From Panagrolaimus kolymaensis (taxonomy: Eukaryota; Nematoda; Chromadorea; Rhabditida; Panagrolaimidae): a stretch of DNA of 64,000 nucleotides. Location of the stretch: assembly GCA_028622995.1 (NCBI GenBank), contig JAJQJQ010000045.1, forward strand, positions 2,068,518 to 2,132,517, written 5' to 3'. The position numbers were made by a program, and so were the translations under genes. Below the pieces are notes generated by a model. That model worked only from the letters and a program-made list of their open reading frames with translations, searched no databases and was not told the DNA's origin. This document shows, piece by piece, positions 13,858 through 49,889 of the stretch (positions are counted from its first letter, which is position 1; each line of letters begins with the position of its first letter).

Positions 13858-14401
13858 AATATCTTTAACTATAAAATGGAGGGAAATATTATTAAAATAA
13901 TTTATGCTAATTTTATAACATAATTAGAATAATAAAAAAGCGATATTTATCGAAAAATTAGCATATTTTTAATGTTTTTGACCAAATTTGGGGTAATGTA
14001 TCTTTGGTTGATCGATCTTTTGGTGGATTTTCGATGGTTTTTGTGTTTATGGATTTTGGGTTTATGGATCTGTGAGTGGATTTTTATGGATTTTTACCGT
14101 TCTTTGAGTGGATTTAGAAAAATTCTTGGATTGATTTTGAATGATCCACGGGTTGATTTTTATGGATCTTCGGGTGGGTTATGATAGATCCTTCCGCGGA
14201 ATTTGAATGATCCTTGGGTGAATTTCCATGGATCTTTCAACTGTTTTCGGTGGATTTTCGTGGATATTTTGGTGGATATTAGGAGAGCTTCGGGTGGATA
14301 TTTGACTAAGGTAGATCGAACTTTTGGTTGATCGATCTTAGGGTGGATGTATCTTTAGGTGGATTTTTATGGATCTCTTTACTGTTTTGGGTGGATTTCT
14401 C

Positions 14402-14722
14402 GGTATCTTTGGGTTGATGGATCTTTGGGTTGATGGATCTTTGGGTTGATGGATCTTTGGGTTGATGGATCTTTGGGTGGATTTCTCGGTATCCTTGGGT
14501 TGATAGATCCTTGGGTTGATAGATCTTTGGGTTGATGGATCTTTGGGTTGATGGATCTTTGGGTGGATTTCTCGGTATCCTTGGGTTGATAGATCTTTGG
14601 GTTGATGGATCCTTGGGTTGATAGATCTTTGGGTTGATGGATCTTTGGGTTGATAGATCTTTGGGTTGATGGATCTTTGGGTTTATGGATCTTTGGGTTG
14701 ATGGATCTTTGGGTGGATGGAT
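14402..14722. repeat. 16-bp minisatellite inside unit 1
   Basis: Tandem copies of GGATCTTTGGGTTGAT and variants (AGATC, CCTTGGG) are broken into blocks by a GGTGGATTTCTCGGTATC spacer. Copy number differs between units and accounts for their length differences. Equivalent tracts sit before the GC-rich hairpin in all nine units. Confidence 0.9.
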
Positions 14723-14737
14723 GATAACTTCCACTTC

Positions 14738-14758
14738 AAGGGGCGCGAAGCGCCCCTT
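14738..14758. other. GC-rich perfect hairpin with T tail, unit 1
   Basis: A nine-base stem AAGGGGCGC/GCGCCCCTT closes a three-base GAA loop and is followed by more T. It ends 109 bases before the unit's 3' end and recurs at the same distance in the other units (for example 16240-16260). It is the most GC-rich spot in an AT-rich region. The autonomous element's 3' end (36493-36821) lacks it. Confidence 0.85.
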
Positions 14759-14867
14759 TTTTCATTCTCCTTACTACATATTTGGTATCAAAATGAAGAG
14801 CTCATTCTTATCTATTTTAATTTATATTTTTTTTTTAAAAACATATGTGGATCCCGTGTCACTGGTT

Positions 14868-16369: not shown

Positions 16370-17903
16370 CCTCTAAACACAGAAAAATTTATGGGAGGTT
16401 CCCATCCTATTAAAGTGGTTAGTAACTATTTCAAAACTAATTATATATCATTATTTAATGCTATTTATCATAATATCTTGGCTTTTTAACGATTAATTAG
16501 CATAATTTAAAGTTTTTCGCGAAAATCACAGTTTTTTGACTAAAACTTTTTTTCCATTCAATGGTTTAACTATGAAACTAGGAGGTGCAGAACTTCAGAA
16601 TATGACAAATTTGATTTTCCTTTTTATATTTTAACTAAAGTTATTGGGCTTAGAGAAAAGTTGGCCCCGTTTGCATTATTAAGGTACCATTTTTTTTTTT
16701 CAAAAATCGATGAAAAAATTTTGCAACATGCATTTTCCCTTCCTTTGTCGCACTTGCTCAGTGGTGGAAGGCGGTGTATTGAAAGGTTGATGGAAGTTCG
16801 AAACCGCGGAGATGTAAATAATTTTTTTGAATATCTTTAACTATAAAATGGAGGGAAATATTATTAAAATAATTTATGCTAATTTTATAACATAATTAGA
16901 ATAATAAAAAAGCGATATTTATCGAAAAATTAGCATATTTTTAATGTTTTTGACCAAATTTGGGGTAATGTATCTTTGGTTGATCGATCTTTTGGTGGAT
17001 TTTCGATGGTTTTTGTGTTTATGGATTTTGGGTTTATGGATCTGTGAGTGGATTTTTATGGATTTTTACCGTTCTTTGAGTGGATTTAGAAAAATTCTTG
17101 GATTGATTTTGAATGATCCACGGGTTGATTTTTATGGATCTTCGGGTGGGTTATGATAGATCCTTCCGCGGAATTTGAATGATCCTTGGGTGAATTTCCA
17201 TGGATCTTTCAACTGTTTTCGGTGGATTTTCGTGGATATTTTGGTGGATATTAGGAGAGCTTCGGGTGGATATTTGACTAAGGTAGATCGAACTTTTGGT
17301 TGATCGATCTTAGGGTGGATGTATCTTTATGTGGATTTTTATGGATCTCTTTACTGTTTTGGGTGGATTTCTCGGTATCTTTGGGTTGATGGATCTTTGG
17401 GTTGATGGATCTTTGGGTTGATGGATCTTTGGGTTGATGGATCTTTGGGTTGATGGATCTTTGGGTTGATGGATCTTTGGGTTGATGGATCTTTGGGTTG
17501 ATGGATCTTTGGGTGGATTTCTCGGTATCCTTGGGTTGATAGATCCTTGGGTTGATAGATCTTTGGGTTGATGGATCTTTGGGTTGATGGATCTTTGGGT
17601 GGATTTCTCGGTATCCTTGGGTTGATAGATCTTTGGGTTGATGGATCCTTGGGTTGATAGATCTTTGGGTTGATGGATCTTTGGGTTGATAGATCTTTGG
17701 GTTGATGGATCTTTGGGTTTATGGATCTTTGGGTTGATGGATCTTTGGGTGGATGGATGATAACTTCCACTTCAAGGGGCGCGAAGCGCCCCTTTTTTCA
17801 TTCTCCTTACTACATATTTGGTATCAAAATGAAGAGCTCATTCTTATCTATTTTAATTTATATTTTTTTTTTAAAAACATATGTGGATCCCGTGTCACTG
17901 GTT
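16370..17903 (+). mobile_element. Non-autonomous unit 3 of array 1 (1534 bp)
   Basis: Same termini and layout; 64 bases (four 16-mers) longer than unit 1. With units 1 and 2 it forms a 4506-base trimer that is repeated by units 4-6. Confidence 0.8.
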
Positions 17904-19373
17904 CCTCTAAACACAGAAAAATTTATGGGAGGTTCCCATCCTATTAAAGTGGTTAGTAACTATTTCAAAACTAATTATATATCATTATTTAATGCTATTT
18001 ATCATAATATCTTGGCTTTTTAACGATTAATTAGCATAATTTAAAGTTTTTCGCGAAAATCACAGTTTTTTGACTAAAACTTTTTTTCCATTCAATGGTT
18101 TAACTATGAAACTAGGAGGTGCAGAACTTCAGAATATGACAAATTTGATTTTCCTTTTTATATTTTAACTAAAGTTATTGGGCTTAGAGAAAAGTTGGCC
18201 CCGTTTGCATTATTAAGGTACCATTTTTTTTTTTCAAAAATCGATGAAAAAATTTTGCAACATGCATTTTCCCTTCCTTTGTCGCACTTGCTCAGTGGTG
18301 GAAGGCGGTGTATTGAAAGGTTGATGGAAGTTCGAAACCGCGGAGATGTAAATAATTTTTTTGAATATCTTTAACTATAAAATGGAGGGAAATATTATTA
18401 AAATAATTTATGCTAATTTTATAACATAATTAGAATAATAAAAAAGCGATATTTATCGAAAAATTAGCATATTTTTAATGTTTTTGACCAAATTTGGGGT
18501 AATGTATCTTTGGTTGATCGATCTTTTGGTGGATTTTCGATGGTTTTTGTGTTTATGGATTTTGGGTTTATGGATCTGTGAGTGGATTTTTATGGATTTT
18601 TACCGTTCTTTGAGTGGATTTAGAAAAATTCTTGGATTGATTTTGAATGATCCACGGGTTGATTTTTATGGATCTTCGGGTGGGTTATGATAGATCCTTC
18701 CGCGGAATTTGAATGATCCTTGGGTGAATTTCCATGGATCTTTCAACTGTTTTCGGTGGATTTTCGTGGATATTTTGGTGGATATTAGGAGAGCTTCGGG
18801 TGGATATTTGACTAAGGTAGATCGAACTTTTGGTTGATCGATCTTAGGGTGGATGTATCTTTAGGTGGATTTTTATGGATCTCTTTACTGTTTTGGGTGG
18901 ATTTCTCGGTATCTTTGGGTTGATGGATCTTTGGGTTGATGGATCTTTGGGTTGATGGATCTTTGGGTTGATGGATCTTTGGGTGGATTTCTCGGTATCC
19001 TTGGGTTGATAGATCCTTGGGTTGATAGATCTTTGGGTTGATGGATCTTTGGGTTGATGGATCTTTGGGTGGATTTCTCGGTATCCTTGGGTTGATAGAT
19101 CTTTGGGTTGATGGATCCTTGGGTTGATAGATCTTTGGGTTGATGGATCTTTGGGTTGATAGATCTTTGGGTTGATGGATCTTTGGGTTTATGGATCTTT
19201 GGGTTGATGGATCTTTGGGTGGATGGATGATAACTTCCACTTCAAGGGGCGCGAAGCGCCCCTTTTTTCATTCTCCTTACTACATATTTGGTATCAAAAT
19301 GAAGAGCTCATTCTTATCTATTTTAATTTATATTTTTTTTTTAAAAACATATGTGGATCCCGTGTCACTGGTT
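17904..19373 (+). mobile_element. Non-autonomous unit 4 of array 1 (1470 bp)
   Basis: Same length as unit 1, the same repeat block structure and the same diagnostic ATCTTTAGGTGG variant; it appears to be a copy of unit 1. Confidence 0.8.
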
Positions 19374-20875
19374 CCTCTAAACACAGAAAAATTTATGGGA
19401 GGTTCCCATCCTATTAAAGTGGTTAGTAACTATTTCAAAACTAATTATATATCATTATTTAATGCTATTTATCATAATATCTTGGCTTTTTAACGATTAA
19501 TTAGCATAATTTAAAGTTTTTCGCGAAAATCACAGTTTTTTGACTAAAACTTTTTTTCCATTCAATGGTTTAACTATGAAACTAGGAGGTGCAGAACTTC
19601 AGAATATGACAAATTTGATTTTCCTTTTTATATTTTAACTAAAGTTATTGGGCTTAGAGAAAAGTTGGCCCCGTTTGCATTATTAAGGTACCATTTTTTT
19701 TTTTCAAAAATCGATGAAAAAATTTTGCAACATGCATTTTCCCTTCCTTTGTCGCACTTGCTCAGTGGTGGAAGGCGGTGTATTGAAAGGTTGATGGAAG
19801 TTCGAAACCGCGGAGATGTAAATAATTTTTTTGAATATCTTTAACTATAAAATGGAGGGAAATATTATTAAAATAATTTATGCTAATTTTATAACATAAT
19901 TAGAATAATAAAAAAGCGATATTTATCGAAAAATTAGCATATTTTTAATGTTTTTGACCAAATTTGGGGTAATGTATCTTTGGTTGATCGATCTTTTGGT
20001 GGATTTTCGATGGTTTTTGTGTTTATGGATTTTGGGTTTATGGATCTGTGAGTGGATTTTTATGGATTTTTACCGTTCTTTGAGTGGATTTAGAAAAATT
20101 CTTGGATTGATTTTGAATGATCCACGGGTTGATTTTTATGGATCTTCGGGTGGGTTATGATAGATCCTTCCGCGGAATTTGAATGATCCTTGGGTGAATT
20201 TCCATGGATCTTTCAACTGTTTTCGGTGGATTTTCGTGGATATTTTGGTGGATATTAGGAGAGCTTCGGGTGGATATTTGACTAAGGTAGATCGAACTTT
20301 TGGTTGATCGATCTTAGGGTGGATGTATCTTTATGTGGATTTTTATGGATCTCTTTACTGTTTTGGGTGGATTTCTCGGTATCTTTGGGTTGATGGATCT
20401 TTGGGTTGATGGATCTTTGGGTTGATGGATCTTTGGGTTGATGGATCTTTGGGTTGATGGATCTTTGGGTTGATGGATCTTTGGGTGGATTTCTCGGTAT
20501 CCTTGGGTTGATAGATCCTTGGGTTGATAGATCTTTGGGTTGATGGATCTTTGGGTTGATGGATCTTTGGGTGGATTTCTCGGTATCCTTGGGTTGATAG
20601 ATCTTTGGGTTGATGGATCCTTGGGTTGATAGATCTTTGGGTTGATGGATCTTTGGGTTGATAGATCTTTGGGTTGATGGATCTTTGGGTTTATGGATCT
20701 TTGGGTTGATGGATCTTTGGGTGGATGGATGATAACTTCCACTTCAAGGGGCGCGAAGCGCCCCTTTTTTCATTCTCCTTACTACATATTTGGTATCAAA
20801 ATGAAGAGCTCATTCTTATCTATTTTAATTTATATTTTTTTTTTAAAAACATATGTGGATCCCGTGTCACTGGTT
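19374..20875 (+). mobile_element. Non-autonomous unit 5 of array 1 (1502 bp)
   Basis: Same length and repeat structure as unit 2, of which it appears to be a copy. Confidence 0.8.
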
Positions 20876-22393
20876 CCTCTAAACACAGAAAAATTTATGG
20901 GAGGTTCCCATCCTATTAAAGTGGTTAGTAACTATTTCAAAACTAATTATATATCATTATTTAATGCTATTTATCATAATATCTTGGCTTTTTAACGATT
21001 AATTAGCATAATTTAAAGTTTTTCGCGAAAATCACAGTTTTTTGACTAAAACTTTTTTTCCATTCAATGGTTTAACTATGAAACTAGGAGGTGCAGAACT
21101 TCAGAATATGACAAATTTGATTTTCCTTTTTATATTTTAACTAAAGTTATTGGGCTTAGAGAAAAGTTGGCCCCGTTTGCATTATTAAGGTACCATTTTT
21201 TTTTTTCAAAAATCGATGAAAAAATTTTGCAACATGCATTTTCCCTTCCTTTGTCGCACTTGCTCAGTGGTGGAAGGCGGTGTATTGAAAGGTTGATGGA
21301 AGTTCGAAACCGCGGAGATGTAAATAATTTTTTTGAATATCTTTAACTATAAAATGGAGGGAAATATTATTAAAATAATTTATGCTAATTTTATAACATA
21401 ATTAGAATAATAAAAAAGCGATATTTATCGAAAAATTAGCATATTTTTAATGTTTTTGACCAAATTTGGGGTAATGTATCTTTGGTTGATCGATCTTTTG
21501 GTGGATTTTCGATGGTTTTTGTGTTTATGGATTTTGGGTTTATGGATCTGTGAGTGGATTTTTATGGATTTTTACCGTTCTTTGAGTGGATTTAGAAAAA
21601 TTCTTGGATTGATTTTGAATGATCCACGGGTTGATTTTTATGGATCTTCGGGTGGGTTATGATAGATCCTTCCGCGGAATTTGAATGATCCTTGGGTGAA
21701 TTTCCATGGATCTTTCAACTGTTTTCGGTGGATTTTCGTGGATATTTTGGTGGATATTAGGAGAGCTTCGGGTGGATATTTGACTAAGGTAGATCGAACT
21801 TTTGGTTGATCGATCTTAGGGTGGATGTATCTTTATGTGGATTTTTATGGATCTCTTTACTGTTTTGGGTGGATTTCTCGGTATCTTTGGGTTGATGGAT
21901 CTTTGGGTTGATGGATCTTTGGGTTGATGGATCTTTGGGTTGATGGATCTTTGGGTTGATGGATCTTTGGGTTGATGGATCTTTGGGTTGATGGATCTTT
22001 GGGTGGATTTCTCGGTATCCTTGGGTTGATAGATCCTTGGGTTGATAGATCTTTGGGTTGATGGATCTTTGGGTTGATGGATCTTTGGGTGGATTTCTCG
22101 GTATCCTTGGGTTGATAGATCTTTGGGTTGATGGATCCTTGGGTTGATAGATCTTTGGGTTGATGGATCTTTGGGTTGATAGATCTTTGGGTTGATGGAT
22201 CTTTGGGTTTATGGATCTTTGGGTTGATGGATCTTTGGGTGGATGGATGATAACTTCCACTTCAAGGGGCGCGAAGCGCCCCTTTTTTCATTCTCCTTAC
22301 TACATATTTGGTATCAAAATGAAGAGCTCATTCTTATCTATTTTAATTTATATTTTTTTTTTAAAAACATATGTGGATCCCGTGTCACTGGTT
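20876..22393 (+). mobile_element. Non-autonomous unit 6 of array 1 (1518 bp)
   Basis: Matches unit 3 less one 16-mer. Its 3' end (CACTGGTT) abuts, with no spacer, the 5' end of the autonomous element at 22394. Its minisatellite structure equals that of array 2 unit 2. Confidence 0.8.
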
Positions 22394-22770
22394 CCTCTAA
22401 ACACAGAAAAATTTATGGGAGGTTCCCACAGGGTTAAGCCGGTTAGTAACTATCTCAAATATACTAATATATCATTATTTAATGTTTAAAATCATAATAT
22501 CTTGGCTTTTTAACAATTAATTAGCATAATTTAATGTTTTTCACGAAAATCACAGTATTTTGACTAAAACTTTTTTTCCTTCTTATCAAGCAACTATGAA
22601 ACTTTGTTATTGAAATCACCTAAGAATTTCGAATAAATTGAACCTTTTCGATTTTTAATATATTCATATTCATCATATAGAAAAACTGGCGTAATTGAAT
22701 TTTATAGGTACCAATATTTTTTTTTCAAAATCGAAGAAAATTTTTTGCAACATGCATTTTCCCTTCCTTT

Positions 22771-22853
22771 GTCGCATTTGCTCAGTGGTGGAAGGCGGTG
22801 GACTTGCGAATGGAAGAAAGTTCGAAACCCCGGAGATGTAAATAATTTTTTTG
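22771..22853 (+). ncRNA. tRNA-like Pol III promoter, autonomous copy 1
   Basis: A box TTGCTCAGTGG at 22778-22788, B box GTTCGAAAC at 22820-22828 and a T-run near 22846-22853. The offset from the element end (+384) and the A-B gap (31 bases) equal those in the units, although the 22 bases just before the B box differ (GACTTGCGAATGG-type here). It is read in the same direction as the transposase and sits ~2 kb upstream of it. Confidence 0.55.
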
Positions 22854-22959
22854 AATCTCTTTAACTATAAAATGGAGGGGAATATAGTTTAAGTTATTTA
22901 TGTTAATTTCTTGACTTATCAAAACTGCTAATTATAGAAAATTAGCACTTTTTAATTTT

Positions 22960-24439
22960 TTTGATCCAAAACAACTATGAATAATTGTGTAATGATTTTT
23001 AAAAGGGTTTTAAATAAATTTTTTGCATATTGAGGCAGCAATTCTTTTTTTAAATTCAAAATATTAAAATGAAGGGCTTTATTGATTTTTTTTCTTTTTG
23101 TCGATGTATATATTAGTCACCATAAAGTTCAAAGCAGCGCGAAAAAAAAGAAGAAATAATGTGAGATTAACAAAGACAAACCAGGCATAAGGGTGTTACA
23201 AATTTTTTTAAATTTTTTCTTAACCCAACAAAAAAAAGAAAGAATACAGAGAGTTTTTTATGGGTTTTTTTGAATATTCCACAAATTATACGTTTTTTAA
23301 CCAAGCTTTCTTCTTACAAGTGTCAAAATATTTTTATTTCTTAAAAGTTTTAATGAAACACCTAATTATCAAACAAATATTCCTTTATTTTTATTCATGT
23401 TGTCTGTAGCACTTCTGTGGAATTGCAAATTATTTTTATTTGTCCTTCATACTTTTTGAAATCTTTTAAATCAAATTCTATCCTTGAATTGCTATCGTTT
23501 TTTTATATCAAATTTAAAAATATTAATGGCCATTTAGTTAATTAAACCCAAAAAATTATGATTTTCAAATGATATCTTTCTCAAAAATTTGATTATAAAA
23601 TTTAAAAAATATATGTATCAAAAATTCAAAAAGAAAAAAACGCGAACTATTTTTTTTTACTTTCTCTTTTAATTTAATGAAAAATAAATATTTCATTGGA
23701 AAACAAATTGCGCTGCTTCTTTATCGATTGATTTTTTTCTTTTTAGTTTCAATGCCAAAACAATCATTTTTTGCGCAACCATAAATAAAAACACGCTCAC
23801 ATAAGCCTTTTTTTAGCACAATTGTTTTGACAAAAAATTCTCAAGGTGTGAATAGCGCTCTTTTTTTGAGCCTTTGCCTTCTTTTTTTTTGCGACGTAAA
23901 AAAATTAATTATAAATGCAAAAGACAGGTTGAATATGTATGTTGGAAGATATTGCTTTTTTTTCTCTTTGAAAATTACGCATTTGTTTCAAACAAAGATC
24001 AAAACTCATATACAAAAAGCAGAAAAAAAGAACACATTTGAATTTTATTGAAATTGTATAAAAGTAATACATATTATTTTTAATATTTTTTCATGCGTCC
24101 ACAGCTCTGTACGTAAGAATCTTTATTATTAATAGGTTGACTTTCCTATTCCGGTTTCTCCGACATTTAAAAAAAAATTGTTGTTAAAAACCTTTTTTTT
24201 GAAAAGATTTTTTTTGAAGAAGCTAACTAGATAAATTTTTATGGTCATTATTTTAATGCCTCCTTAAAATTAATCTTCGAAAGAATAATTTATTTATAAA
24301 AATCAAAACTAAAAAAAATGTCTCAAAATATTCGAAAAGGCAAAGAGACAAACATCTTTTTATTTTCACTTTAATGAAAAAGGAATTTTTTTTTTGCAAA
24401 AATGTGTTGCTTCTTTTTCTCTCTTTTTTCTTTAGTTTG
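22960..24439. other. AT-rich 5' region of element 1, no gene
   Basis: About 1.5 kb of poly-A/T-rich DNA alignable with ~50000-51800 in element 2, which carries an extra MITE there. The open frame at 23827-24051 is low complexity and not preserved in element 2, so I do not call it. Confidence 0.6.
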
Positions 24440-24551
24440 AGAAACCAAGAATAAATAAACCATAAGCGGTAAATTTATTATTGAGTTTATCGATGAAGGT
24501 TTCATCGTTCCTCTTTTTTAACACATATTTCAATAAATTTTCAGTTTTCAT
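24440..24551 (-). pseudogene. Innexin 5' remnant (captured gene fragment)
   Basis: Reading left from the ATG at 24551, about 37 codons match the N-terminus of the innexin at 52421-53732 (MKTENLLKYV, RNDETFIDKLNNKFTAY), then homology stops abruptly near 24440. The sequence beyond the break matches the far side of the innexin block in element 2 (~51800). The rest of the gene, about 1.8 kb, is therefore absent by deletion. It retains the divergent arrangement with the transposase start at 24754. Confidence 0.75.
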
Positions 24552-24753
24552 TTTACAATACAAACAAAAATTGAATAAAAAATATTAAACAAAAAAAATG
24601 TTCTCAACTTTGATAAAAAAATAAGCATTTTTTGGCCAAGTGTGCTATGTTTGTTAGCTAAGTTTTTTAATTTTGATTGAAAATATTTAAATTTTTCCGT
24701 TTATTATAATTTTTTTTTGTTATGAGTGTTAAAATATATTTATTACTTTCAGG
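24552..24753. promoter_or_regulatory. Short divergent promoter region, element 1
   Basis: The ~200 bases between the innexin remnant's ATG and the transposase ATG are conserved with 53733-53938. They end in TTACTTTCAG directly before gATG, a strong 3' splice site that could accept a trans-spliced leader. Confidence 0.5.
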
Positions 24754-27700
24754 ATGATTCCACGCCAAGTACAAAAACCCTCATGTTCATATGAAATTAT
24801 CAATTTTTCATCAAATCATCCTTTAATGTATGATATTTCAAACGATGATGATGATGATGTTGGGAATAAAAAAAAGCGATTGAGGCTTGGAATAATGAGG
24901 GCAAATAGAGGTAGTGCTCAATCCACTAATGCTCGCTCTCAACCTTCATTTATCCCTATTTTTTTATCGAATACTTCTAAAAAACCTTTGATGCCAAATT
25001 TTGATTTTGTTAGCAGTTCTCAAAGTTCAGCATCCACTCAACCTTCAAAAAATATTGTGTATGTTTTTAATTATTAAAGCTTTTTTATTTTTATCATATT
25101 CTTATTTTTTTAGCTCGGAATATTCTATATCCACTAATCATTTTAATAATTCTTCAATCAATTCTTCAATCAATTCTTCTATCAATTCTTCTATCAATGT
25201 AAATTCTTTTTTAAAAAACTGTGATCAAATTAGTTCAAATGAATTGCTCAATTTAAATGATCACTTTCGAAATTGTGATCAAACTCTTTCAAATCAAACA
25301 GTTAATGTTAATTATTTTTTTCGTCAATGTGATGAAATAATGCGTTCCAGTTCGGAGAAGAGAATACCCCAGAACGAAACTGTTTCCAGCATCAATCCAA
25401 ATTTTTATGATTTTGGTGACATAAAAAAGGATGCTGGAACTTTTTCCTGGGCATTTCATAATGCTCATACTCATTTGGAAAGGCAAAGATTTAAGGAAGA
25501 AGCAGAGAAGGAAAGATATCAGCTTATGGTTAAAGCTGATTATAGAATGATCCCTGTAATATATGAACCTGAGCAATCAATAACCGAGGAGTAAATTAAT
25601 TTTATGTCTAAAAAACTCAAAACTAATTAAAAAATTGTTTTTCAGACTTCAATTTTTCCAAAAGCAATGTTTGCTTCACCCTCCTTCAATAGCCTATAAA
25701 GCTGATGATCGTGATTTACGTGATTTTATTTGGGAAAAGGAGGAACTTCATACTTTTGCTTTTGGATATCAACAGCCACATGAAGCAAAGTATGCTACAC
25801 TCATGGGTCGACAACTTGAAGCTGAAAGAAAAGCTAATATTCGTAATGGTATTAATGATGATCCTTTTAATCAAAATACATCACAAATGAATCAATAGTA
25901 ATTTTTATAGCTTGAAATATATATACTTTTTAATTTTCTTTTTTTAGCTCAAATTATTTAAAGCAAAAAGATTTCTTTCCACTTAATTCAAGCGATGTAC
26001 AGAAAGTAATCAATGATTATAAAAATCTTCAAGCAGAATATTCATCCAATTCTTCAATAATAACATTTCGAGAAGAATATTTTTTTAGTGAAAATAGCAG
26101 ATTGTAAGAATCTCTCTCTTTTTTACCCTATTATTTTTCTACAATACTTTTATTTTTTTAGATCCACAACTTTTGGAAGTAACTTTTATCTTCATAATTT
26201 ATCTGATGCAATGATGAAGGATTTTATTCAAAATAATCAAATATCTATTAATGATTCTAAAATAAGCTTAAATGGAAGTAATTTAGTTAATGATAGTAAA
26301 ATTGGAAAAACCCTTGGCATTTCAAATAATTCTACCATCAGCCTTCATCCTGATTTTGTTGAACATGGTGACATTAAAGCAAATGCCGGGCCTTGCGCAT
26401 TTGCATATGGAATTAGCAATCCCATGGAAGTTAAGAAATTTAAGGAAGAAGCTGATATAGAACGTGAAGAGCGAAAACAAAAAGCTTTATATCGGATGCA
26501 TCAAAAGCCTCCACCTATTTCATATGAAACTAAAATGGATGAATTGTAAGTTTAATATGCAATATGTTTTGTATAAACTTAATAACTAATTCCAGATATG
26601 AAGCTTATCAAAAACAATGTCAGAAGCCAGAACCCAAGGCTTTTAAAGCAAAGCCAAAAGAAATTTTAAATGATACTCGGTAAAATAATATCACACAAAA
26701 CATATATATTCCAAGTTTTTATTCGATTTTTTAGACAAACAACAAAAAAAATATCAAAATCTTTCTATGAACAAAATCATGATGATCCATTGATGATTCA
26801 AACCCTTCGAAAGCAACGTCGAGAATTAGCTGAAAATAATTCCACAATAAGCTTAAGACATTTTAAACGTTGCTTGGAAGAAACATATCGGTAAGAAAAA
26901 TGGAAACATTTTTTGAATGATTCCAAAATCAAATTTTTAGTAAAGGTAATCTTTCCACTTCTCTTTATGATGAAACTGAATCATTAATGGTGCATATCCG
27001 TCGTCAACAACGCAAGGCTTTAAACCACTCCACCATTAGCTATAATGAAAGTCGATTTTGTCTTTGGAATCTAAATTCATCCCAAGATTTAAAAAATGCA
27101 ACATCTGATAATTCCACTTTATTCTCAAAAAATCTTTATCGAGATTTAAAAACTAAAATGGCAAATGATTCTACAATTAGCTTAAACCCAAATAGTCTTT
27201 ATCCGGATCCAATTGAAAGGGAAGAACTTCCCGCTTGGGTGTTCGGAATCTCAAGCTTACGAGATTTGAGAGGCTTTTTTGAAGAAAGACAAGAAAAGTG
27301 TGTTGTTGACATTTCAACTCCAGAAGAAAATGTCAATTATGAATTGGATTTTGAACGTTTATCAAAAATACTTCAAATAGTTGAACGATGTGATGACGAG
27401 ATGTTTCAAAGTGAAATAACTAATGAAAATATTATGAAATCGTCTGGACTTTCCCCATTTTCATCTGATACAAATGAATTTCCTTCATCGTATGGTCGTG
27501 AACTTAAATTTATTAAAGAACAACTCAAAAAGCTTAAAATTAAAGAGCATGAAGAAAATATGTATCAATTAGCTTTAAAATTAGAAGAGGATGCGCGAGT
27601 AAAAGATTCGATTGAAACTGAGGAAAGGGAAGAAAGTTTCAACAATCTTATGAATGACTATGAAAATGATTGGCAAGAAAAAAATTTTGAAATTCAGAAT

Positions 27701-30700
27701 GGCCGTGATATGGATATTGCTGAAATTCAAGAAAGATTTTTTGGTGGCGATGATCAAAATGAATCAGATGAAGGTATATAATATTTTTTGAAAGAGAGAA
27801 TGTTTTAAATTATTTATTTTTATAGAAAAATGTGAAATTAAAATGGCAATAAAAGCTAATGTTGAACAACTTCCAACTGAAGAAAAATGTGAGCGTATCG
27901 ATAGTATATTTCGTGAAGGATTGGCTATTGATTATCTTGAATGTAAGCATTCTCCTTAATCCCAAAATCATAATATATATTTCAAATCTTTAGTTGATAA
28001 AATTGAAGCAAAGAAAAAGGCTAAAATTGAAGCTAAAGAAAAGAAAATTCTTGAAAAAGAATCATCTAAACAAAAGGCTAAAATTGAAAAAGAAGAACGA
28101 AAACGAGAAGAAATAGCAAAAAAGGAAGCTATGAAAAAAGCGAAACTTGAAAAAGATGCAGCTATACAACGTGAAAATGCAAAGCGAGAAGCTGAAAAGA
28201 AAAAGGCTAAAGAAGAAAAGAAATCTCTTAAAATCGTGAGCTTTCAAAAATATTAGATAATTTGAATAACTTTAAATTTTTTAGACATTGAATCCATTGA
28301 AATTATTTTCTAAAAAGCATAAACAAACTCATTTGGATGAAAATGAATATGAATTTCCTCCTCAATCATGTGATGATTTGATTGGTGGTGGAAAAAGAAA
28401 AAAATCACAAGCTACAATTGCAAGCGAAAAAAAAGTAAATGATAAAAACTCTTATGAAAGAAGAAAATCTCAAATTCAATCAATTCATACTGATAATAAT
28501 GATAGCACTATGTCAACTGATAATGAAACTGAAGAAAATTCTTCTTCTGCTCCTTTAAAACGAACTAACAAAGACAAGGCTAATGAAGTAATTTTTATAA
28601 AAAAAGAGAAATTTTGAGTATATATAAATTATTTTTAAGGTTGCCACTAAACGAACTAAAGTTGCATCAGAAAATGCTCAAGTTGATTCGATTTCTTTGG
28701 AAGTGCCTGATGCGCATGGAAATGTTGAAAGGGTAATTTTTCTTTTAACCCTTTTTATCTAAATAATAAATTTTAAATTTAGGCGGCTTCCATGAATTCT
28801 TTTCACCTTGAAAGCAATAATAATACTCAATTTGATAATGGCGAAGGAGATGTTTTGCATCATGTTTTTATTGAACCACCAAATTTTAATGGAGTTACAT
28901 TACCTCTTGAAGTTTATCGACAACTTAGACCTGATGAATATTTGGGTGGCGATCATATTTTAAATTGTTTGAGCTCAATGGCAGCGTGCGGATCTGGAAG
29001 ACTATATAAAAAGATTGGTGTGCTTGATCCTTTTTATTTGATTGATCCTCATCCAATAATTGATGAAAACGTTTTACGTATTAAAAATTACTTGAAGGTG
29101 TATAACGGAAATCCCGATTTGGTTTTATGCCCTATTAACCACGCCAACTTTCATTGGACCATTTTAATTGCCGATGTTAAGAAACGTAAAGCCTTTTATT
29201 ATGATACCCTTGGTGATGGTTATTATCGGGCAAATTTCACTGCTACAGAAAGACAAAAATGTGAAAAAATTCTTAATGATTTATCTTCTGCCAATATCAT
29301 TCCAAATAACATTCAATTGGTAAAAGCTCCAACAACATCATATGATAGACAATTGGATGGTATTAATTGTGGCCTCCATGATATTCTTATCCCAGAATCA
29401 TATATTCTCAATGGCGAATCCAGACGTCTTCCTGCATTGGATACGATCGTTGAAAGAAACAGAATAAACTATGTTTTGGAGCGCCTGGCACGATTAAACG
29501 GTTCTGGATGTATTTTAAGAATAAATATACCCGAATGGCCATGGAGGACTTTTGAAGATTTAATAAATCCATCAGTTCCTACAAATCAGCGCCTTAATGC
29601 TAATATTTCAAATGATAAAAATGATCGTTTAACACAAATTGAAAATGATGATTGTGAAGTGAGGGATCAAATTGGTTATGATAATGATGAAGAAGATGAA
29701 GAAAAAGCAAATTATGAAGGCCTTTTTTTTAATAATATTCGAATGTTATCAGAAGAACCAAAAAAATTCAATGATGTTCAAGTCACCAACTTTTTGTGCT
29801 CCATGGCTGGGCATGCATCTAAAATTGTATTCTCCAACATAACTGTATTAGATCCTTTATTTATTTCTTCATACAAAATGGGATAGCCACTTAAAATTAA
29901 GGATTGCCTTCTAGTATTTCCAACAATGCCGGATTTAATTCTTTGCCCCATTCCATTGCAAGATAATAATTGGACAATATTAATAATCAATTGCAATCTT
30001 GAGACAGCTCTATTTTTTGATCCCCTTCCGTTGGGAGCTAAACTTGGTGTAGTTTTTGGTGAAGAAGAACTAGATATTTGCACAATGATCATGAATGAAT
30101 TAAAATCCGCAAAAATTATTAATGATAATATTAATTGTGAAAGAGCTCCTTATGATTCTTTTAACTATCAAGAACTTCAAGGAGATAGTGCCTTTAATAT
30201 TATGCTTATTGCTGAACATGTTTCATTCTTTGGAGAATCTATGTTTTTTGAAAAGGATAAACTTAATATTAAACGAGAAAATGCACGTTTCCGTGTTTTG
30301 TTGGCAGGGTTGTATCTTCTCAATCTTGAGCGTCAAGATAATGAACATATTAATATTCCAAATTGGTTACCAACATGTTTTGAATATATTGAAGATCAAG
30401 CTTATGCTATGTTTTCTGATGAACCACGAGATCTTTTGGAGGATAATGATTTGATTCAACAAATGAATGTTGCTCCTCCATCAACTCAACGTATTACTCA
30501 ACTTCGACGATCACAAAGAGTTCTTCCAAGAACAGCTAAAACTAAACAACTTTATGATGATAAACGGACAAAGCAGATCAATTCTCTTCGACAACAAGGA
30601 AAACCAGTTGCTCTTAATAGTTCAAAAGTCAATCCAGAACGTCATTACCTTGGTCCAATGAATATCCCATGCCGATATAAATGCGGTGCAATGCTATTTA

Positions 30701-33700
30701 AAGGTGAAACAAGTAATGCATGCTGTAGTTATGGAACAGTACCCATACCTAATGTTCCACAAATGCCTCCAATATGGGAAGCCATTGCTGCACATCCAGA
30801 ATTTTGGAAACTTTCTACCCAATTCAACAGCTTGATGGCAATGATTTCAACTTCAGCTAACGTAAAACGTCACGCAGATACATTCAAAGTTGAAGGAGAA
30901 CTTAAGCATACTGCAGGTGATTTAAACCCGAATCTTGGTGCCAATCCAATGTTTGTTCAAAATTATACCATTGATTCAAATCAAGCTTGTGAAAATAGAA
31001 TATCTGATCTAACTCATAAATTACATTTTAAAGCTGAAGATGCTGTTAAGCATAAAGAACTTATTGGCTTACTTGAAGCCATGCTACGTGAATGCCATCC
31101 TCTCGCAAAGATACTTGCAAACACGAAAGATATTCTTGCTGAAGTCGAGCGAAAGGCTGCACTTGAAAACAAAGTCCTTCGAAAATTTTATTTGGTGTGG
31201 GAAAGTGGAAGTGAAAAAAATACAAATCCTGGATGCTTCACATTACCAACTGTTGGTGGGCAAGTATTTACTCTTTATCATGCTGAAGAGGACGATGAAA
31301 GACCCAAAGGTATTTGGTTTGGTATTTCTAAAGATGGAAGTAATGATATTCGGCATATTCCCCATTACAACTCATACGCAGATGCAGCTGCTTATCCTTT
31401 AATTTTCATTTATGGTCAAGAAGGATGGCGTCCAGGAATGAAAAAACTTAAACCTGCTGTTAAAAACTCATTTGCTAATAAAAAAAATCCTCTCATTGTT
31501 ACTTCTTCTGCGCCTCAACATATTCAAACTCAATCAACTGTAAATGCACCCATATCAGCTTTTACTCAAGCGGCGGCGCCCCTAAATATTTTATCTGATG
31601 ATAATTATGATATTTTAAATGAAAAAGGTTTCTGTAGTGATTCTGATGAAGATTTTGATGAATGCGATGATGATGTATCCAGACCTTCTTCAAACAAAAG
31701 AGAAAATATTTCTTTAAAACAACATTATAGCTCTTTGCCTTTTGATCGAAATGAAAAACAACTTAAAGAATTCAATCCAATGAATGGTTTAAGAGAGCTT
31801 ACTCAAAAATTTTACATCGGTGCATGGCTTAATGTTCAAAGGCAAAGGCTAGATTGGATTGAAAAATTGCAAGCAGCTGAAGATAGACAAAAACGTTATG
31901 ATCAATGTAATCGACTTCGTGAAGCTCTTCAAGCTAAAATTAATCGTGATGAAGCACTTCGTGGAAAAGAATTAGGAAAAATTATTCTTCTCAACAAAGA
32001 TTTCCGAGGTAGCCGCCGCTATATGGAGGAACAATTTAAAGATAACATCGCGATAGCTAATCGTTATGGATTTCCTACTTTATTTCCAACATTTACTGGA
32101 AATCCTAACTGGCCGGAGATCACTGAAAATCTTCGGCCTGGAGAAACTTGGATTCAGCGGCCTGATCTTACCGTTCGTGTTTTCAAATTGAAAGCTAAAG
32201 AATTTCTTAAAGATGTAATTGAAAGGAACATCTTTGGAAAAGTGCTTGCTTATTCCGTATCATTGGAAATTCAGAAAAGAGGTATGCCTCATTTGCATTT
32301 GCTCTTAACCATGGAAGAAGGTTATAAATATAATGATCCAACAGAACTTGATGATCTTATTACCGCCCAATTACCAGTCATGCCAGATGAAAATGATACT
32401 TCTTATGATGCCGAATATCAGCTCCGTTATCATGATAGTGTATTAAAATTTATGATGCATGATCCAAGAAAATGCAAAGGTATTTGTGGCCCAGGAAAGA
32501 AGGAAGGAATTTGTTCAAAAGATTTCCCGAAGAACTTCTCGGATGAAACTGTTATAAGAACCGATGGATTTGCTGCATTAAAAAGACCCGCTGATCGACG
32601 CGAAATTGATACTTTTCCAAGTGGAAAACGTCGCAATATTCCAATGACAAATCAACATGTGGTGGCACATAACCGTTATTTAATACTCAAATACAACTGC
32701 CACATCAACTTGGAACACTGCGGGGGTCTCAAATGTGTCAAATATTTGTATAAATACATATACAAGGGCAATGATCAAGCCTTCGTCTCAGTTCGTGAAA
32801 TTAAAAATTCACCTGATACAAGCAACAAAGTGGATTACAATGAAATCACTCAATATCGCAAGATGCAGCTAATGAGTGCCACTGAGGCTATTTTGGGATT
32901 GATTGGAATGTTCCGTTGCAAAAAATCTCATTCCGTTGAAGTACTTGATGTTCATCTGGAATCCGAACACAACGTAGTATTTGATCCCAATGATGATGAA
33001 GAAACCCTTAATAAATTGACTGAAAATGATGGAGTTGAGGAAGAAGATAAAGCTGTTTCTAAACTTACTGCATTCTTCAAATTAGTGAATGATGAATGTG
33101 AAGCTTTTATTGTTAATCCTTTTATTTTTGATGATGATGATAAACCTCGATCAATGGATTTATATTATCATCAAATTCCAGAATACTATCGATGGGATAA
33201 AAAAAATAAAGAATGGATTCGTCGAAAGAATGAAGTCAAAGTAGTTGGCCGCTTGAGATGTATATACCCTAGCGAGGTTGAAAAATATTGCTTGCGTGAA
33301 CTATTAAGGTGTGTAAAAGGACCAAGCAATTATGGAATTTTAAAATGGTACAAAAAAGTTCAATACAAAACCTTCCATGAAGCTGCAGTAGCTCGAGGCC
33401 TTTATGTTGATGATAAAATGTGTTATTCAACTATGGAAGAAATTATTTCATCTTACATGCCACGAGATTGTCGAACTGTATTCGCATTGCTTTTAATTTA
33501 TAATCAACCAAAAGATCCTGCAGCTTTATGGAATGATCATTGGAAAAGCCTCATCGATCACAATCCAGATATACCCGAAGAAATTCGAGTTCGAAAGGCC
33601 CTTGCTCACATCGCTTCAATTCTTTTTCATCATCAAAAAACCCTCAAAGATTTCAATCTTCCTGATGTCTCTGAAGATGATCTCATAGATTCCATCAATA

Positions 33701-36492
33701 ATGTTTTTCCAACTGAAGATAATGATGGTGAAGCAGATTATAAGCAATTGAATGACGAACAACGAGCTTTTGTTGACAAAGTCATTGAATCAATCAAAAA
33801 CAAAAAAGACCTTCGCCGATTACGCCTTTTCTTTTTGCAAGGTAGCGGTGGTACGGGCAAAACTTTTGTTTACAACACTTTAATTCGAATGCTCCGAGCA
33901 CGAGGCTTAAAAGTTATTGCTGTTGCGTCTACTGGAATAGCTGCAACTTTACTTGATGGTGGTACAACAGCTCATTCTGCTTTCCACATTCCTCTTGACA
34001 TCCATCAAGAACCAAACATCCCAAAAAACTCTCCTCTCGCCCGTTTAATTCGTGAAGCTGATGTTATTATTTGGGACGAAGCCCCAATGCAACATAAATC
34101 TGTCCTCAAGCATGTTGCAGGACTTATCAAGAATTTGGTTGGACTTGATGAACATCATTCAAAATTCGGAAATAAAACTGTTATTCTTGGTGGTGATTTT
34201 AAACAACTTCTCCCTGTAATGAGAAATGAAAGTGCTCGAGCATCTTTTGAAGCTTCATTGTTATGCTCACCTCTCTTCAGAGACAATTTCAAAATCCATA
34301 CTTTGAAGACAAATGTAAGAGCTGCTGATGATCCTAATTATGCAGCATGGATTAATGATGTGGGTAATGGACGTAATCAATCAACAACTTTTGGAATTAA
34401 TAAAGTTCAACTCCCTGATGATATCGTTTTTTATCATCCTCAACCAGTGATTGATTTTGTTTATCCACCAGAATTTTTCGAATGGGATACTAAATCACAA
34501 AAATACCTCGATTATGTTTCTGAAGCAGTATTAATGGCACCTTTAAATCAAACTGTAAAGGATTTAAATGAAATGATTATTTCAAAGTTAAAGGGTGACC
34601 ATAAAGATTATGTTGCTAACAATATTATGACATCGACCCTTTATCCAGATGATGAAATATTACGTGAAAATTTTACTTCAGAAGAACTAGCTAATTTCGA
34701 ACATTCTTCCATTCCTTCAAACACTATTCGTTTAAAGGTTGGTACAGTCGTTATGCTTACTCGAAATATCCTTATTCCACTTGGTTTATGTAATGGTACA
34801 AGGATGGTGGTAGAAAAAATGTACGATCATCATATTGCATGCCGTATTCTCACTGGAAGATCAAAAGGTTTAATTTATCCTATTGTTGCCGTTTTAAACA
34901 ATTTTTCCGATCAATCCGATGATTCTTTACCTGATTTTACTCGAATGCAACTTCCAATTCGACCAGCCTTTGCTATTACCATCAACAAAGGGCAAGGTCA
35001 AACTTTGAGAAAAGTAGGCATCATTTTGTATACGGACAGTTTTTCTCATGGGCAATTTTACGTTGCTGTGAGTCGTGTTCGTGAACGTAAAGATATTCGA
35101 ATATTTGTCAGGCAACAAAATACTGGATTTGCTGCAAATGGTCAAAAAATTCCTCATGCTCAAAATATTGTATTTAAAGAAGTTTTAACCGCCATTAAAC
35201 AACAAGCTGATGATCAACAAAAAGACATGAATGCACAACAAGTGAAGGCTTCACAACAGCAAATTTTTAATGATGTTATGGATGTCATTGATCAAATTAA
35301 TGACAATGTGTATTCACCATTATCAACACCATCAGCATCTCAATTTCGTATTGATGTAAATTCAGCGCTGCCAATGTATGATGTTACACATTTAACACAA
35401 ACCTTCCAATATCCATCATCAGTTATAAACAATGTCTCAAGTTCCCAGATTTCTCAGCCACAATATCGCAGTGCTAATGATTGTTTAAAGCTTAAAAATG
35501 TATTTAATGATTGTTTCTTGGTTTCCGCAGTAAATGCAATTGATTTGATGAAAGAATTGAAGGATTCCTTTCATAATGTTCCTGAAAATGATGCAGCATC
35601 ACATCACGAATTAATGAAAGTTTTGAGTGGTGAAGTTCCTGATGTGCAAGCCTTAAGAAACTCATATCCAAATTATCGATATAATCCCAACACAAATGAT
35701 CAGCATGATGGTTTTGAAATGTTTTCGACATTAATTCAATCTCTTCACGAACTTTCAAGAAGCCTTTTTGAATTCCCGATATATACCTATCATGTATGTG
35801 AATGTGGAAGAGTTCCACAACAACCAACCATGGGATCAATGTTGGAATTGAATGTTGTTAATTCCTTAACTAAACAAGTGACTTCAACGTTCGATGGAAT
35901 GTTAGAAAATTTTGTTGGGCCAAATGTAATTACCGGCTTCATGTGCACAAAGCAACATGAAATCGTCTCAAATGATGTTTATTCTTTCACTCGAAGTCAA
36001 ACTTATCTTAATGTCGGAATTAATAATGTTGATGCGACCGGACAGCCACGCTTCATTGCCTCTAATTCTTTGCATATAAATGGGCATGAAATTGGTGGTG
36101 CTAAATGGAAACTGATTGGCGCCATTCAACATATTGCTGGAAATCGTCATTATGTGACTTGGAGAAGAAACGAGGATAATAAATGGATTGTTATTGATGA
36201 TAGTAATTCTTCCATCGTTTGTAATCGTTTACTTGATGACTTAGCCAACTATAGATGTTTAATTTTTCAAAGAATATTTAATCACGAACAACTTAATTCT
36301 CCACAACAATTAAATATTGCCAATAATGATGCTGATGCTCAATTGATTAGTGAACAAATCAAAGCTTATTTTAAAGTTCAAGATGATGCAAATGAAATTT
36401 GTGATGATTATGATGATGATGTTCAAGAAGAAGTGAAAGAACAAGATGAGGACGAAGAAGATGACGAGAAGCTTTTCAAATTGGATGACTGA
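24754..36492 (+). CDS. Helitron transposase with Ulp1, pseudo-Ulp1, Rep, Pif1 helicase and USP-like domains (one in-frame stop)
   Basis: Thirteen exons join in frame: 24754-25058, 25114-25590, 25646-25897, 25948-26103, 26162-26545, 26596-26679, 26735-26890, 26941-27773, 27826-27942, 27994-28235, 28285-28587, 28640-28732, 28783-36492; about 3,700 residues. The first ~1,130 are Asn/Ser-rich with degenerate ~50-residue repeats and a Lys/Glu coiled-coil-like stretch. Next comes an Ulp1/C48-type protease with His 29152, Asp 29203, Gln 29350, Cys 29368 (Q-x5-C as in Ulp1). A second Ulp1-like domain follows (~29730-30330) with His to Asn and Cys to Ala. The Rep domain has HLH at 32290-32298 and YLYKYIYKG at 32743-32769. 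The Pif1-like helicase has GSGGTGKT at 33841, IIWDEAP near 34066, GGDFKQLLP, NKGQGQT and YVAVSRV. The C-terminal USP-like domain has NVFNDCF (Cys 35511), QHDGFEMF, a CxC pair and NRHYVTW (His 36148). A TAG at 29884-29886 replaces the AAG of copy 2, so this copy is broken or misread there. Confidence 0.82.
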
Positions 36493-36821
36493 AACTAATA
36501 TGTTTAAAAAATTTAATCTGTTACTTAGTTTTATTTTTGTTTACTTTTTTTTATTGATTATACGGGTGAATAATTTTTTGTTCTTTATTTATTAAACTTG
36601 GTACAACTTAAAATTACGGGTGTCTTTTATTTTTTATTGTGATCACATTTTTTTGTGCCTTCAATTTTTCTGTGCAATGAACTATTTTATGTTTTGAATG
36701 TTTTGTTATTATTGTTTTATAAACCCTTTAATTATTATTATATCAAATTGAAGAGCTCTTTCTTCTCTATTATAATTTATAATTTTTTAAATATATTAAT
36801 ATGTGGATCCCGTGTCACTGG
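36493..36821 (+). other. 3' terminal region of element 1
   Basis: Noncoding tail of the autonomous element. From ~36738 (TATCAAATTGAAGAGCTC) to 36821 it parallels the last ~90 bases of every non-autonomous unit, ending ATATGTGGATCCCGTGTCAC then TGG. This shared block is probably the cis sequence that ends transposition (inference from its preservation in all complete copies). Confidence 0.65.
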
Positions 36822-36841
36822 TTTTTCTAGCATTATTAATT

Positions 36842-38802
36842 ATGTCTCAGAACCACGTTCTTGGATTAACTAAAATTCAACGAGATATTGGTTATTATAA
36901 TTATTTGGTGGCTTTTGGTTTTGCGATATTTTTAAATGGATTTTTGGCTTTTGCGGTCGCCAAACGATCCACGCCGATTTTAAAGTCCTACAAAAAAGTA
37001 TTTATTTTTCATATTATTGTCGATGTTTCTTTGGCGCTGCTTTTAACTTTAACTATGTTTCAACCTATTGGAGCTAAATAGTAAGTTTAAATTTATTTAT
37101 TTTCTGTTTTTTTGATTATAAAAAAATTGAGTCATGAAGGATTTTTTTTTCTTGAATTTGTGGAAAATAAAAACTAACATAAATTTCTTCATTACAGTAA
37201 CTATAATAGATTTTATTATTTCTTAATTATGAAATTTGCAGAAAAAAATTACTTTACGTTTCATTGAAAGTAATTAAGGCATATTTCCAAGAGTATGAAT
37301 TTTTTTTTTCTAATAATTTAATTAAAAGTTTGTGTGGTATTTCGAATTCACTAATTTTCTCAGTAATTTCCTTGAAGAAAAATAATAATTAATTTAATTA
37401 AAATTACATACATTTTTGCTTTCGTCATTCATTTGTTTTTCTTTCTATCGAAATTTGAAGTTCTGAGAAAAATCAAAAAAGAAAGCTACATTCTTTGATT
37501 TCGGGATTTAAGATTTTAAAAAAAATTTAATTATCAAGGAACTAAAATATTTTTAAAAGTATTATTAAAGCTTAAAAAAGTTTCAACTTTTTTATATGCA
37601 ATTTTTTTTTCATAAAAATTATAAATTCACCAATTTTTTAGTGAAGAAAAATCAATAGTTTTTCATATCGTTGCTGGATTGATTGAATACCCGCCTCAAC
37701 CATGGACGACGATATTCGCGTGTATAACATTATTTTTTCAAATTTATAATATCACCACTGCGCCTGTGAGCTTTTTCTATCGATACTTAATAATTTGTCA
37801 TAATTATGAAATTTCAATAATTAAATTTTTTTGTTTATGTCTTATCGCTGGAATTGGGCCTTTAGCTTTGTCGTTGAGTATTTTAATTAGTGAATTAAGC
37901 ACTCGACATTTTGAAAATGAAATTTCTATAATGTTTCAAGAAACAGATTGGATTGGCGAAAATGGAATTATTCCTGCTTTTGGAGTAATGTTTACAAGTC
38001 ATACAGCCATTGATTGTTATATCACCCCAGTTACGGTAATTGTCGCATATTCCATCGTCCTTTATTGTACCATAAAAATTTCTAAGAAAATATTGGCTTT
38101 AAATTCTTTACAACAACAAAATGCTTCAGGTAGTTAGTAGGGTTGTCAAATTTTTGAAGAAAAAATTAAAAATCTTCGGAAACATAAAAAAAATAAAATT
38201 AATAAAGCTCTTTTTAAAGTTAAAAAACGGTAAATTTAAAAAATAAAGAAAAGTGTTCAAAGCATATTTTTAAAAAGAAATTCATTATCCAAATTTTGGT
38301 TTTTCAAACAAAAAAACCCAAAATTTAATTTTTAAACTTATTTTCGCGCTATTTTTTTAAACTTTTATTTGTGAAAAATTCTTTTAAACCCATATCCAAA
38401 AAATTATAAAGTAATTTTTCGTTGAACGACAACCCTCACAATTTTTTTTCAGGACGAAATATTCGAAGTCAAGCCCAACTTCAAACTGTTCTCTATTGCC
38501 AAGCGTTAATTCCATTTTTCACGAATGGCATTTCAAATTTAGCTTTACAATATGGAAAAGTTATGGGTCTCACTCAACCATGGTGGTATTATTATTTAAA
38601 TTTGCTTAATACTTGGTCGCCCGTAGTTAATCCATTGGTGGCATTAATCGTGATAGGACCATATAGAAAATTTATGCTTCATCCATTTTCTTCTAAAATT
38701 GATAATAGCACTACAAATGGCGGAGGAATAACCAAATATGCAACAACAACTACAAAAGAGATAACTCAACATTTTTCTAAATTAGTTAAAATTGTTAAAT
38801 AA
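36842..38802 (+). CDS. Nematode serpentine (7TM) chemoreceptor-like protein
   Basis: Three exons (36842-37080, 37642-38129, 38453-38802) join in frame to 358 residues. Seven hydrophobic segments are visible. After TM1 come KSYKKVFIFHIIVD and, near the end, TWSPVVNPLVALIVIGPYRK, motifs of the nematode Str/Srh/Srd-type receptors. Such receptors sit in sensory-neuron membranes; ligand unknown. The ATG was chosen because it follows the acceptor-like TTTTTCTAG (36822-36830) by 11 bases and gives a short extracellular N-terminus. The rolling-circle element ends only 20 bases upstream, so the gene's original promoter is displaced by at least 23 kb unless it lies within this tiny gap. An alternative N-terminus reading into the element is possible. 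Subfamily is uncertain. Confidence 0.72.
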
Positions 38803-44673: not shown

Positions 44674-45077
44674 CCTAAAGTATAAAAGCAAACATTTTGT
44701 CTAAAATGAAATGGACCAATAATAATATCGACCATGAAAGTCAAAAAAACGAAAAAAGCTTTTCTATATTCCAAACTTTGAAACTTTTTTTTTGAAAGAA
44801 CACTGATTTTCTTTTTCGTTTTGAGAAATTTTTTTTGAGATCTTTTGTTATTTGTTTTTTTTTTTCTTCAAATTTTTTTAATGAAAGCTCATTATTTCAA
44901 ACCTTCATCATAATTCATTTTTGTGATTAATAATTGTGAAAGTTTAGTTTAGAAAGTTTTTGAAGTGGTTGAGCCATAAATAAATAATCAAAAAACAGTT
45001 TATCGATATCCTGAATCAGACTTGTTTTGATAATTCTCAAGAAATTTATTGTATTATGTATTTTTCATTCATTTATT
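44674..45077. other. Host flank left of array 2
   Basis: AT-rich upstream region of the hypothetical gene, ending in ATTTATT immediately before the CCTCTAAACACAG terminus of array 2. It has no similarity to the flank of array 1 beyond the terminal TATT, so the two arrays are independent insertions and not one block duplicated with its flank. Confidence 0.55.
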
Positions 45078-49886: not shown

Positions 49887-49889
49887 GAA

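Follow-up and report, generated by a model that had tools for sequence, protein, structure and literature searches.

The window analysed here, a 64,000-nucleotide stretch of the nematode Panagrolaimus kolymaensis (GenBank assembly GCA_028622995.1, contig JAJQJQ010000045.1, positions 2,068,518 to 2,132,517), holds two insertions of a Helitron, in which short non-autonomous units (six in insertion 1, three in insertion 2) are followed by a full-length element. Within the 14.43-kb full element of insertion 1 (copy 1), positions 24754-36492 form one predicted 13-exon gene with a product of about 3,700 amino acids. Five domains are recognised in this product: an Ulp1-like protease domain of peptidase family C48 (C48-1), a decayed tandem duplicate of it (C48-2), a Rep endonuclease of the HUH type, a Pif1-type helicase and a USP-like (C19) protease domain. 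The features are collected in Table 1.

Table 1. Features of the two Helitron insertions, numbered from the first letter of the window.
Feature	Position	Strand	Remarks
Short non-autonomous Helitron units (n=6), upstream part of insertion 1	13396-22391	+	1.47-1.53 kb each, head to tail, with 16-nt minisatellite; 5'/3' termini; left host base A
Copy 1, full-length Helitron	22392-36821	+	14,430 bp; start 5' TTCCTCTAAACACAG..., finish 3' ...GTGTCACTGG, then host T; termini
Predicted exons 1-12, copy 1	24754-28732	+	24754-25058, 25114-25590, 25646-25897, 25948-26103, 26162-26545, 26596-26679, 26735-26890, 26941-27773, 27826-27942, 27994-28235, 28285-28587, 28640-28732
Exon 13, copy 1	28783-36492	+	C48-1, C48-2, Rep, helicase, USP; broken by TAG 29884-29886
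C48-1, Ulp1-like protease domain	28849-29625	+	His 29152-29154, Asp 29203-29205, Gln 29350-29352, Cys 29368-29370
C48-2, decayed tandem duplicate of C48-1	29728-30420	+	N/D/Q/S
In-frame TAG, copy 1, inside C48-2	29884-29886	+	Not in copy 2; identical 367-codon break in one other family copy (contig C18) of 22
Cys motif	30670-30735	+	CRYKC...CCSYG, aligned with N-terminal part of Helraiser
Rep (HUH) endonuclease	31762-32796	+	HLH 32290-32298; KYLYKYIYKG 32740-32769, two Tyr aligned with Helraiser Y727/Y731
Pif1-type helicase	33727-35166	+	Walker A 33841-33864, Walker B 34066-34083, YVAVSR 35059-35076
USP-like domain	35491-36222	+	Cys 35512-35514; CxC/CxxxH 35797-35805 and 35944-35958; His 36148-36150; Asp-Asp 36196-36201
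3' terminus of copy 1	36803-36821	+	GTGGATCCCGTGTCACTGG; last bases CTGG = CTRR; 338 exact ends genome-wide
Short units (n=3), insertion 2	45076-49425	+	Different left flank (ends ...CATTTA); termini
Copy 2, full-length Helitron	49426-64000	+	Truncated at contig end (contig's last base = window's last base)
Innexin gene pieces, copy 2 only	52424-53738	-	Profile 3-64 and 183-333, E 3.5e-12 and 4.5e-24
Exons 1-12, copy 2	53939-57895	+	Exon 13 starts 57947

Exon 13 encodes all five domains. Among 22 family copies, whose C48-1 sequences are 94-100% identical, it is open throughout in 14, over 2,569 codons in 13 of them and 2,568 in one; likewise, 14 of the 23 USP matches at 98-100% sit in frames of 2,568 or 2,569 codons. 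The initial annotation had read Ulp1-like, pseudo-Ulp1, Rep, Pif1 and USP-like modules in that order from a single frame, and the 14 copies bear this out, with catalytic residues kept and signs of purifying selection. A separate gene for the protease exons was rejected for exon 13, since C48-1 to USP share this one open frame. The further claim of one spliced frame in the window agrees with the 13-exon prediction but not with the stop inside the second C48 of copy 1.

The upstream exons were found in copy 2 by a simple splice search, using a general splice consensus, and the chain was then mapped onto copy 1, where all GT donors, all AG acceptors and the frame are kept and exons 1-12 contain no stop. 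They comprise 1,134 Ser/Glu/Lys/Asn-rich codons in copy 1 and 1,125 amino acids in copy 2 (no Pfam match at E<=1 for the copy-2 version), are separated by introns of 48-58 nt, and are joined in frame to exon 13 by a donor after 28732 and an acceptor before 28783. Between the two copies, exon lengths differ by 24 and 3 nt, both divisible by three, and intron lengths by 1, 6, 1, 1 and 1 nt, and over 1,125 codons dS is 0.070 and dN 0.034 (Fisher p 3e-4). The same 12 exons are in frame and stop-free in both further genomic copies checked, each of which has an intact exon 13.

The central part of the predicted product is a complete Helraiser-type Rep/Pif1 transposase. Alignment with Helraiser (catalytic-residue numbering from the portion of PMC4778049 consulted) and the motifs of Table 1 identify a Rep HUH nuclease with its Tyr pair, and the helicase (PF05970, 8.1e-54) lies C-terminal to it in the same frame.

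C48-1 contains His, Asp, Gln and Cys at the catalytic positions and matched the Peptidase C48 profile, and SUMO proteases (SENP/Ulp1) top both its sequence and its fold matches. Its AlphaFold model, built from four aligned rows, is of low confidence (pLDDT 49.5) and still ranked SENP/Ulp1 first; with such a model, the absence of a family from the fold lists carries no meaning. Against NCBIfam, the match was to an Ulp1-family XopD model, at 31 of 700 bits and far below the cut-off. C48-2 reaches 14.3 bits with PF02902, below the cut-off, and has N-D-Q-S in place of H/D/Q/C, by which residues it is a pseudo-protease. In 24 aligned C48 domains the catalytic columns read HDQC in 12 (one of them in a retrotransposon, L035, discussed below), DDQS in four, EDQS in three, NDQS in two, and HCQC (L034), HDMS and HDLS in one each. 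Leaving out L035, H/D/Q/C is kept in 11 of 23, among them the C48-1 of each of the four loci with two C48 domains, and domains retaining the triad are only 28-67% identical to one another.

As an isolated domain, the USP-like region matched its Pfam profile with 32.4 bits (cut-off 23.9), and the catalytic Cys, His and Asp/Asn are all found. Relatives with 23-65% identity also have the Cys, the Zn-type Cys and the His/Asp box. When a profile of the family was compared with the PDB, USPs led the 32 sequences at E<=1. The Pfam expectations of the initial annotation are thereby confirmed for C48-1, the helicase and, in isolation, the USP. Of the structural models of the two proteases that it called for, that of C48-1 is the low-confidence one above, and the single-sequence AlphaFold model of the USP (pLDDT 32.7) is unusable. 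Nothing relevant matched the USP in NCBIfam. In a set of 5.8 billion proteins no homologue was found of the C48 pair or of the USP, queried both as a region and as an isolated domain; a search of viral contigs also gave none.

Relatives were sought in the window's own genome, the sole eukaryotic genome searched. The C48-1 query gave 147 matches, from which 20 loci were fetched: 18 carry C48 and Rep in one frame (which is not a frequency, all 20 having been chosen from C48 matches), L036 has C48 in a frame before Rep, and L035 is a retrotransposon. The latter (G000:C43:776000-782500) was rejected as a Helitron relative, since a single frame of 1,412 aa joins its C48 (HDQC) to a reverse transcriptase behind it. 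In eight Rep loci picked by PF14214 score (L001-L008), no C48 was found in the 3.55 kb fetched, two of them being also scanned with Pfam. In a Rep tree the window family groups with L019 and L020 (support 0.78; 0.995 for L019/L020), the only fetched loci with two C48 domains. Contig C98, which holds L019 and L039, has two USPs; no USP was seen in the stretch fetched for L020. A deeply different Helitron lineage, L036 with L041, has C48, Rep, Pif1 and then a USP behind an in-frame TAG, with similar rows on contigs C28, C48 and C5. A few divergent Helitrons of this genome, then, carry a USP. By sequence, a C48 before Rep is not special to the window element, and it is the second C48 and the USP that mark its subfamily. 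The architecture is real, recurrent and constrained.

A further USP locus lies on contig C7 (L040; G000:C7:503553-505634, L040:4054-6135), where a 694-aa frame has two USP-like domains, the first with Cys and His. No Rep or helicase match was found in the 4 kb upstream of this frame, which may be a remnant or a host gene.

Nei-Gojobori ratios (omega) were computed for the pairs L037/L019, L037/L020, L037/L038 and L019/L020, given in this order; values with dS >1 are rough. They are 0.16, 0.12, 0.11 and 0.22 for C48-1; 0.46, 0.36, 0.22 and 0.49 for C48-2; 0.16, 0.20, not informative and 0.16 for Rep; and 0.18, 0.26, 0.29 (four changes only) and 0.24 for the helicase. For the USP, omega is 0.52 in L037/L019, and L037/L038 is uninformative (0 synonymous, 3 nonsynonymous). 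Fisher p values are 9e-25 (L037/L019) and 2e-14 (L037/L038) for C48-1, and 8e-4 for the USP. From these ratios, the active C48 is held like the transposase core, and the dead C48 less so; the USP is constrained, though more loosely.

The ends of the element tell of its mobility. The short units begin with TTCCTCTAAACACAG as does the full element, and a 24-nt string at 36800-36823 closes every short unit and also follows the gene, giving 10 occurrences in the window where none would be expected. The full element and the first short unit have 518 nt at the 5' end (81%) and 81 nt at the 3' end (85%) in common, and on this resemblance they are a classical autonomous/non-autonomous pair. Genome-wide, a control had 0 exact occurrences as against 338 for the 19-nt 3' end, and in a pattern search none of the 338 is followed by A, C or G; 20 of 20 ends that were read have T behind them (19 TT, 1 TA). 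At 67 5' ends, counted without those having G as left base because G marks unit junctions, the left base is A in 66 and T in one. The element thus shares with canonical Helitrons its insertion between A and T and its CTGG end, but starts with TTCC. Given the A|T target and the 338 3' ends, it has been mobile in the past. Helitron2 ends with a T|T target were dropped in view of the left base A and of the single TA among the 20 3' ends, and a segmental duplication of one locus was rejected as the left flanks of the two insertions differ. A 5' hairpin (TGGGA-GGT-TCCCA) is present in the element, and the last 60 nt of the 3' subterminal region fold weakly (-2.7 kcal/mol) with no clear hairpin. The full element has one 12-nt inverted repeat, which both short units tested lack.

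The full element stands last in both head-to-tail arrays (13396-22391 and 45076-49425). Unit lengths of 1470/1502/1534 and then 1470/1502/1518 suggest a three-unit higher-order repeat. The element's own 5' junction, with its T behind the host A, is a new A|T site and could build such arrays. About 1.8 kb of copy 2 (51806-53621) have no counterpart in copy 1 and contain antisense innexin pieces, a captured host gene fragment. The two copies diverge unevenly from each other (24441-34833 against 53622-63998), by 0 to 48 differences per 300 nt, which points to gene conversion or mosaic copies. Some family copies lie within about 10 kb of contig ends (C44, C5, C47, C80, C708), which may reflect repeats that break the assembly or a preference for chromosome ends. 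Directly behind insertion 1, chemoreceptor-like GPCR exons occupy 36840-38802, their Srd/Str matches being below the Pfam cut-offs. Together with the innexin and the introns of about 50 nt, these weak receptor matches fit a nematode source. An Rfam scan of the window gave no match at the gathering score.

Like Helraiser and canonical Helitron1, the element has a Rep HUH with two Tyr, a Pif1 helicase, an N-terminal Cys motif, a CTRR 3' end and A/T insertion. Unlike them, it flanks the transposase with two C48 domains on the N-terminal side and a USP on the C-terminal side and starts with TTCC rather than TC, and because of this 5' end it is not filed as a canonical Helitron1. It resembles the OTU/VTD Helentrons, as described in the consulted parts of PMC9741609 and PMC4067079, in being, by homology, a rolling-circle element with predicted ubiquitin-directed cysteine proteases, sometimes in two copies, whereas its protease families are others, Helentrons having a C-terminal AP endonuclease and a preference for TT sites. 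The two main ORFs of the window copy show no OTU or VTD at E<=1 and no AP endonuclease with Pfam, the USP being in its place. Ulp1 domains are known from Ginger1 and Mutator transposases and C19 from a Trichomonas transposase, in the part of Bao et al. 2010 (PMC2836005) used here. These are likewise transposases fused to Ulp1 or C19, but of DDE-type or Transposase_11 rather than Rep-Hel, and Helitrons are there assigned OTU, not Ulp1. The retrotransposon L035 is another transposon of this genome with a C48 protease, differing in its reverse transcriptase in place of Rep-Hel; NeSL elements are non-LTR retrotransposons with a C48 domain, as L035 is. SENP/Ulp1 and USP15/USP30 are similar in sequence, and for C48-1 also in fold and catalytic motifs, but are cellular enzymes with no transposase fusion. 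The main texts of Erven et al. 2022 and Thomas et al. 2014 (PMC9741609, PMC4067079) have 0 occurrences of Ulp1, and no Helitron USP was met in the parts consulted. A Helitron with Ulp1 or USP was not found in the literature searched, which is weak evidence of absence with subscription papers and Repbase outside the search. The initial annotation had called the Ulp1 plus USP architecture unfamiliar; the literature searched gave no example of it, and an Ulp1 module also precedes Rep in the 18 C48-selected loci noted above.

From these computed features we infer enzyme activity, modifier specificity, targets and benefit as follows. It is rather probable that the element is an autonomous transposon of the Helitron superfamily whose transposase carries ubiquitin-like-modifier proteases acting on SUMO/ubiquitin conjugates. 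By homology, Rep and the helicase would nick, unwind and circularise the element and then insert the circles, as described for Helraiser, whose Rep-helicase makes and inserts circular intermediates (PMC4778049, in part). C48-1 is most likely a working cysteine protease with SUMO or a related modifier as substrate, and a deubiquitinase is the most likely identity of the C-terminal USP-like domain; C48-2, its catalysis lost, is probably a binding or regulatory module. Tethered to the transposase, both proteases would reach replicating DNA, where the transposase itself, or the local chromatin and replication proteins, could lose their SUMO and ubiquitin. Removal of the modifiers may shield the intermediate against degradation or silencing. 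The VTD domains of zebrafish Helitrons have measured deubiquitinase activity, and protection from degradation was proposed for them (PMC9741609, in the part consulted).

Several observations weigh against this reading. Neither window copy is intact: in copy 2, an in-frame TAA (62675-62677) and, near 62736, a frameshift of one base precede the helicase, which itself has two further indels. The catalytic His and Cys are gone in seven sampled single-C48 loci (L025-L028, L030-L032) with frames of 1,902-2,114 codons, and since these frames stay long, not every Helitron of this genome requires the catalysis. C48-1 of window copies 1 and 2 differs by 3 synonymous and 8 nonsynonymous changes, which alone give no constraint signal. 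The USP falls below the Pfam cut-off in the full-length protein, as do two of three related USP proteins scanned (L039 21.7 and L041 13.7 bits; L040 passes with 37.8), and its structural model is of no use. The first USP on contig C98 contains a TAA, and it is on sequence behind this TAA that the USP omega of 0.52 rests; a TAG splits the helicase frame of L041 from its USP frame; and the second USP of L040 is without Cys. Modifier specificity is not readable from sequence.

Less likely, but of some weight, are specificities that are reversed or broader: C48-1 would then remove ubiquitin or NEDD8, and the USP-like domain would be a SUMO isopeptidase akin to USPL1/C98. Peptidase family C98 also matches the USP (24.8 bits, cut-off 27), a single USP sequence weakly matches USPL1 chains (E 0.11), and bacterial and NEDD8-specific relatives occur within the C48 fold lists; the C48-1 lists, however, are led by SENP/Ulp1, and there is no USPL1 among the 32 PDB sequences.

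The main rival, which we regard as unlikely, is self-processing of a polyprotein: the proteases would cleave the giant fusion into working units, like viral cysteine proteases, and host conjugates would not be edited. The size of the protein, the protease domains flanking the transposase on both sides and Gly-Gly motifs in the N-terminal region, such as DLIGGG in both copies, are consistent with it, and Thomas et al. 2014 (PMC4067079, in part) raise cleavage between Rep, helicase and endonuclease for OTU Helentrons. The dead C48 of the seven Helitron loci speaks against it. Helraiser-type transposases, too, are not known to need processing.

Still less probable is that the proteases are passengers, host genes captured and carried without function. 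Helitrons do capture genes, as the innexin fragment of copy 2 indicates, and C48-2 and some USPs have decayed. This is disfavoured by the one open frame in 14 copies, by the triads kept among such divergent C48 domains, and by the C48-1 omega of 0.11-0.22 with its p values in the two pairs tested. A chance fusion was rejected. Separate genes, or a domesticated host gene, are very improbable, although the splice acceptor before exon 13 could also let translation begin at ATG 28792 and the window copy has a TAG, because C48-1 to USP are in one frame in 14 copies, four copies preserve the splice sites and reading frame of exons 1-12, and the termini, A|T sites and copy number are those of a transposon.

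Returning to an autonomous Helitron with modifier proteases, we tentatively suggest that it may belong to a Helitron branch with SUMO/ubiquitin proteolysis built in. Ulp1 would be ancestral to the sampled C48 lineages, followed by a duplication into an active and an inactive copy and then by the USP, so that one polypeptide might replicate DNA and remove both modifiers there. One genome offers a graded series of no detected C48, dead C48, live C48, two C48, and two C48 plus USP. This bears on the question of why transposons repeatedly gain deubiquitinases and deSUMOylases. With a transposase that joins both kinds of protease to a catalytically dead domain as internal control, and with many near-identical intact copies, the role of each protease would be testable.

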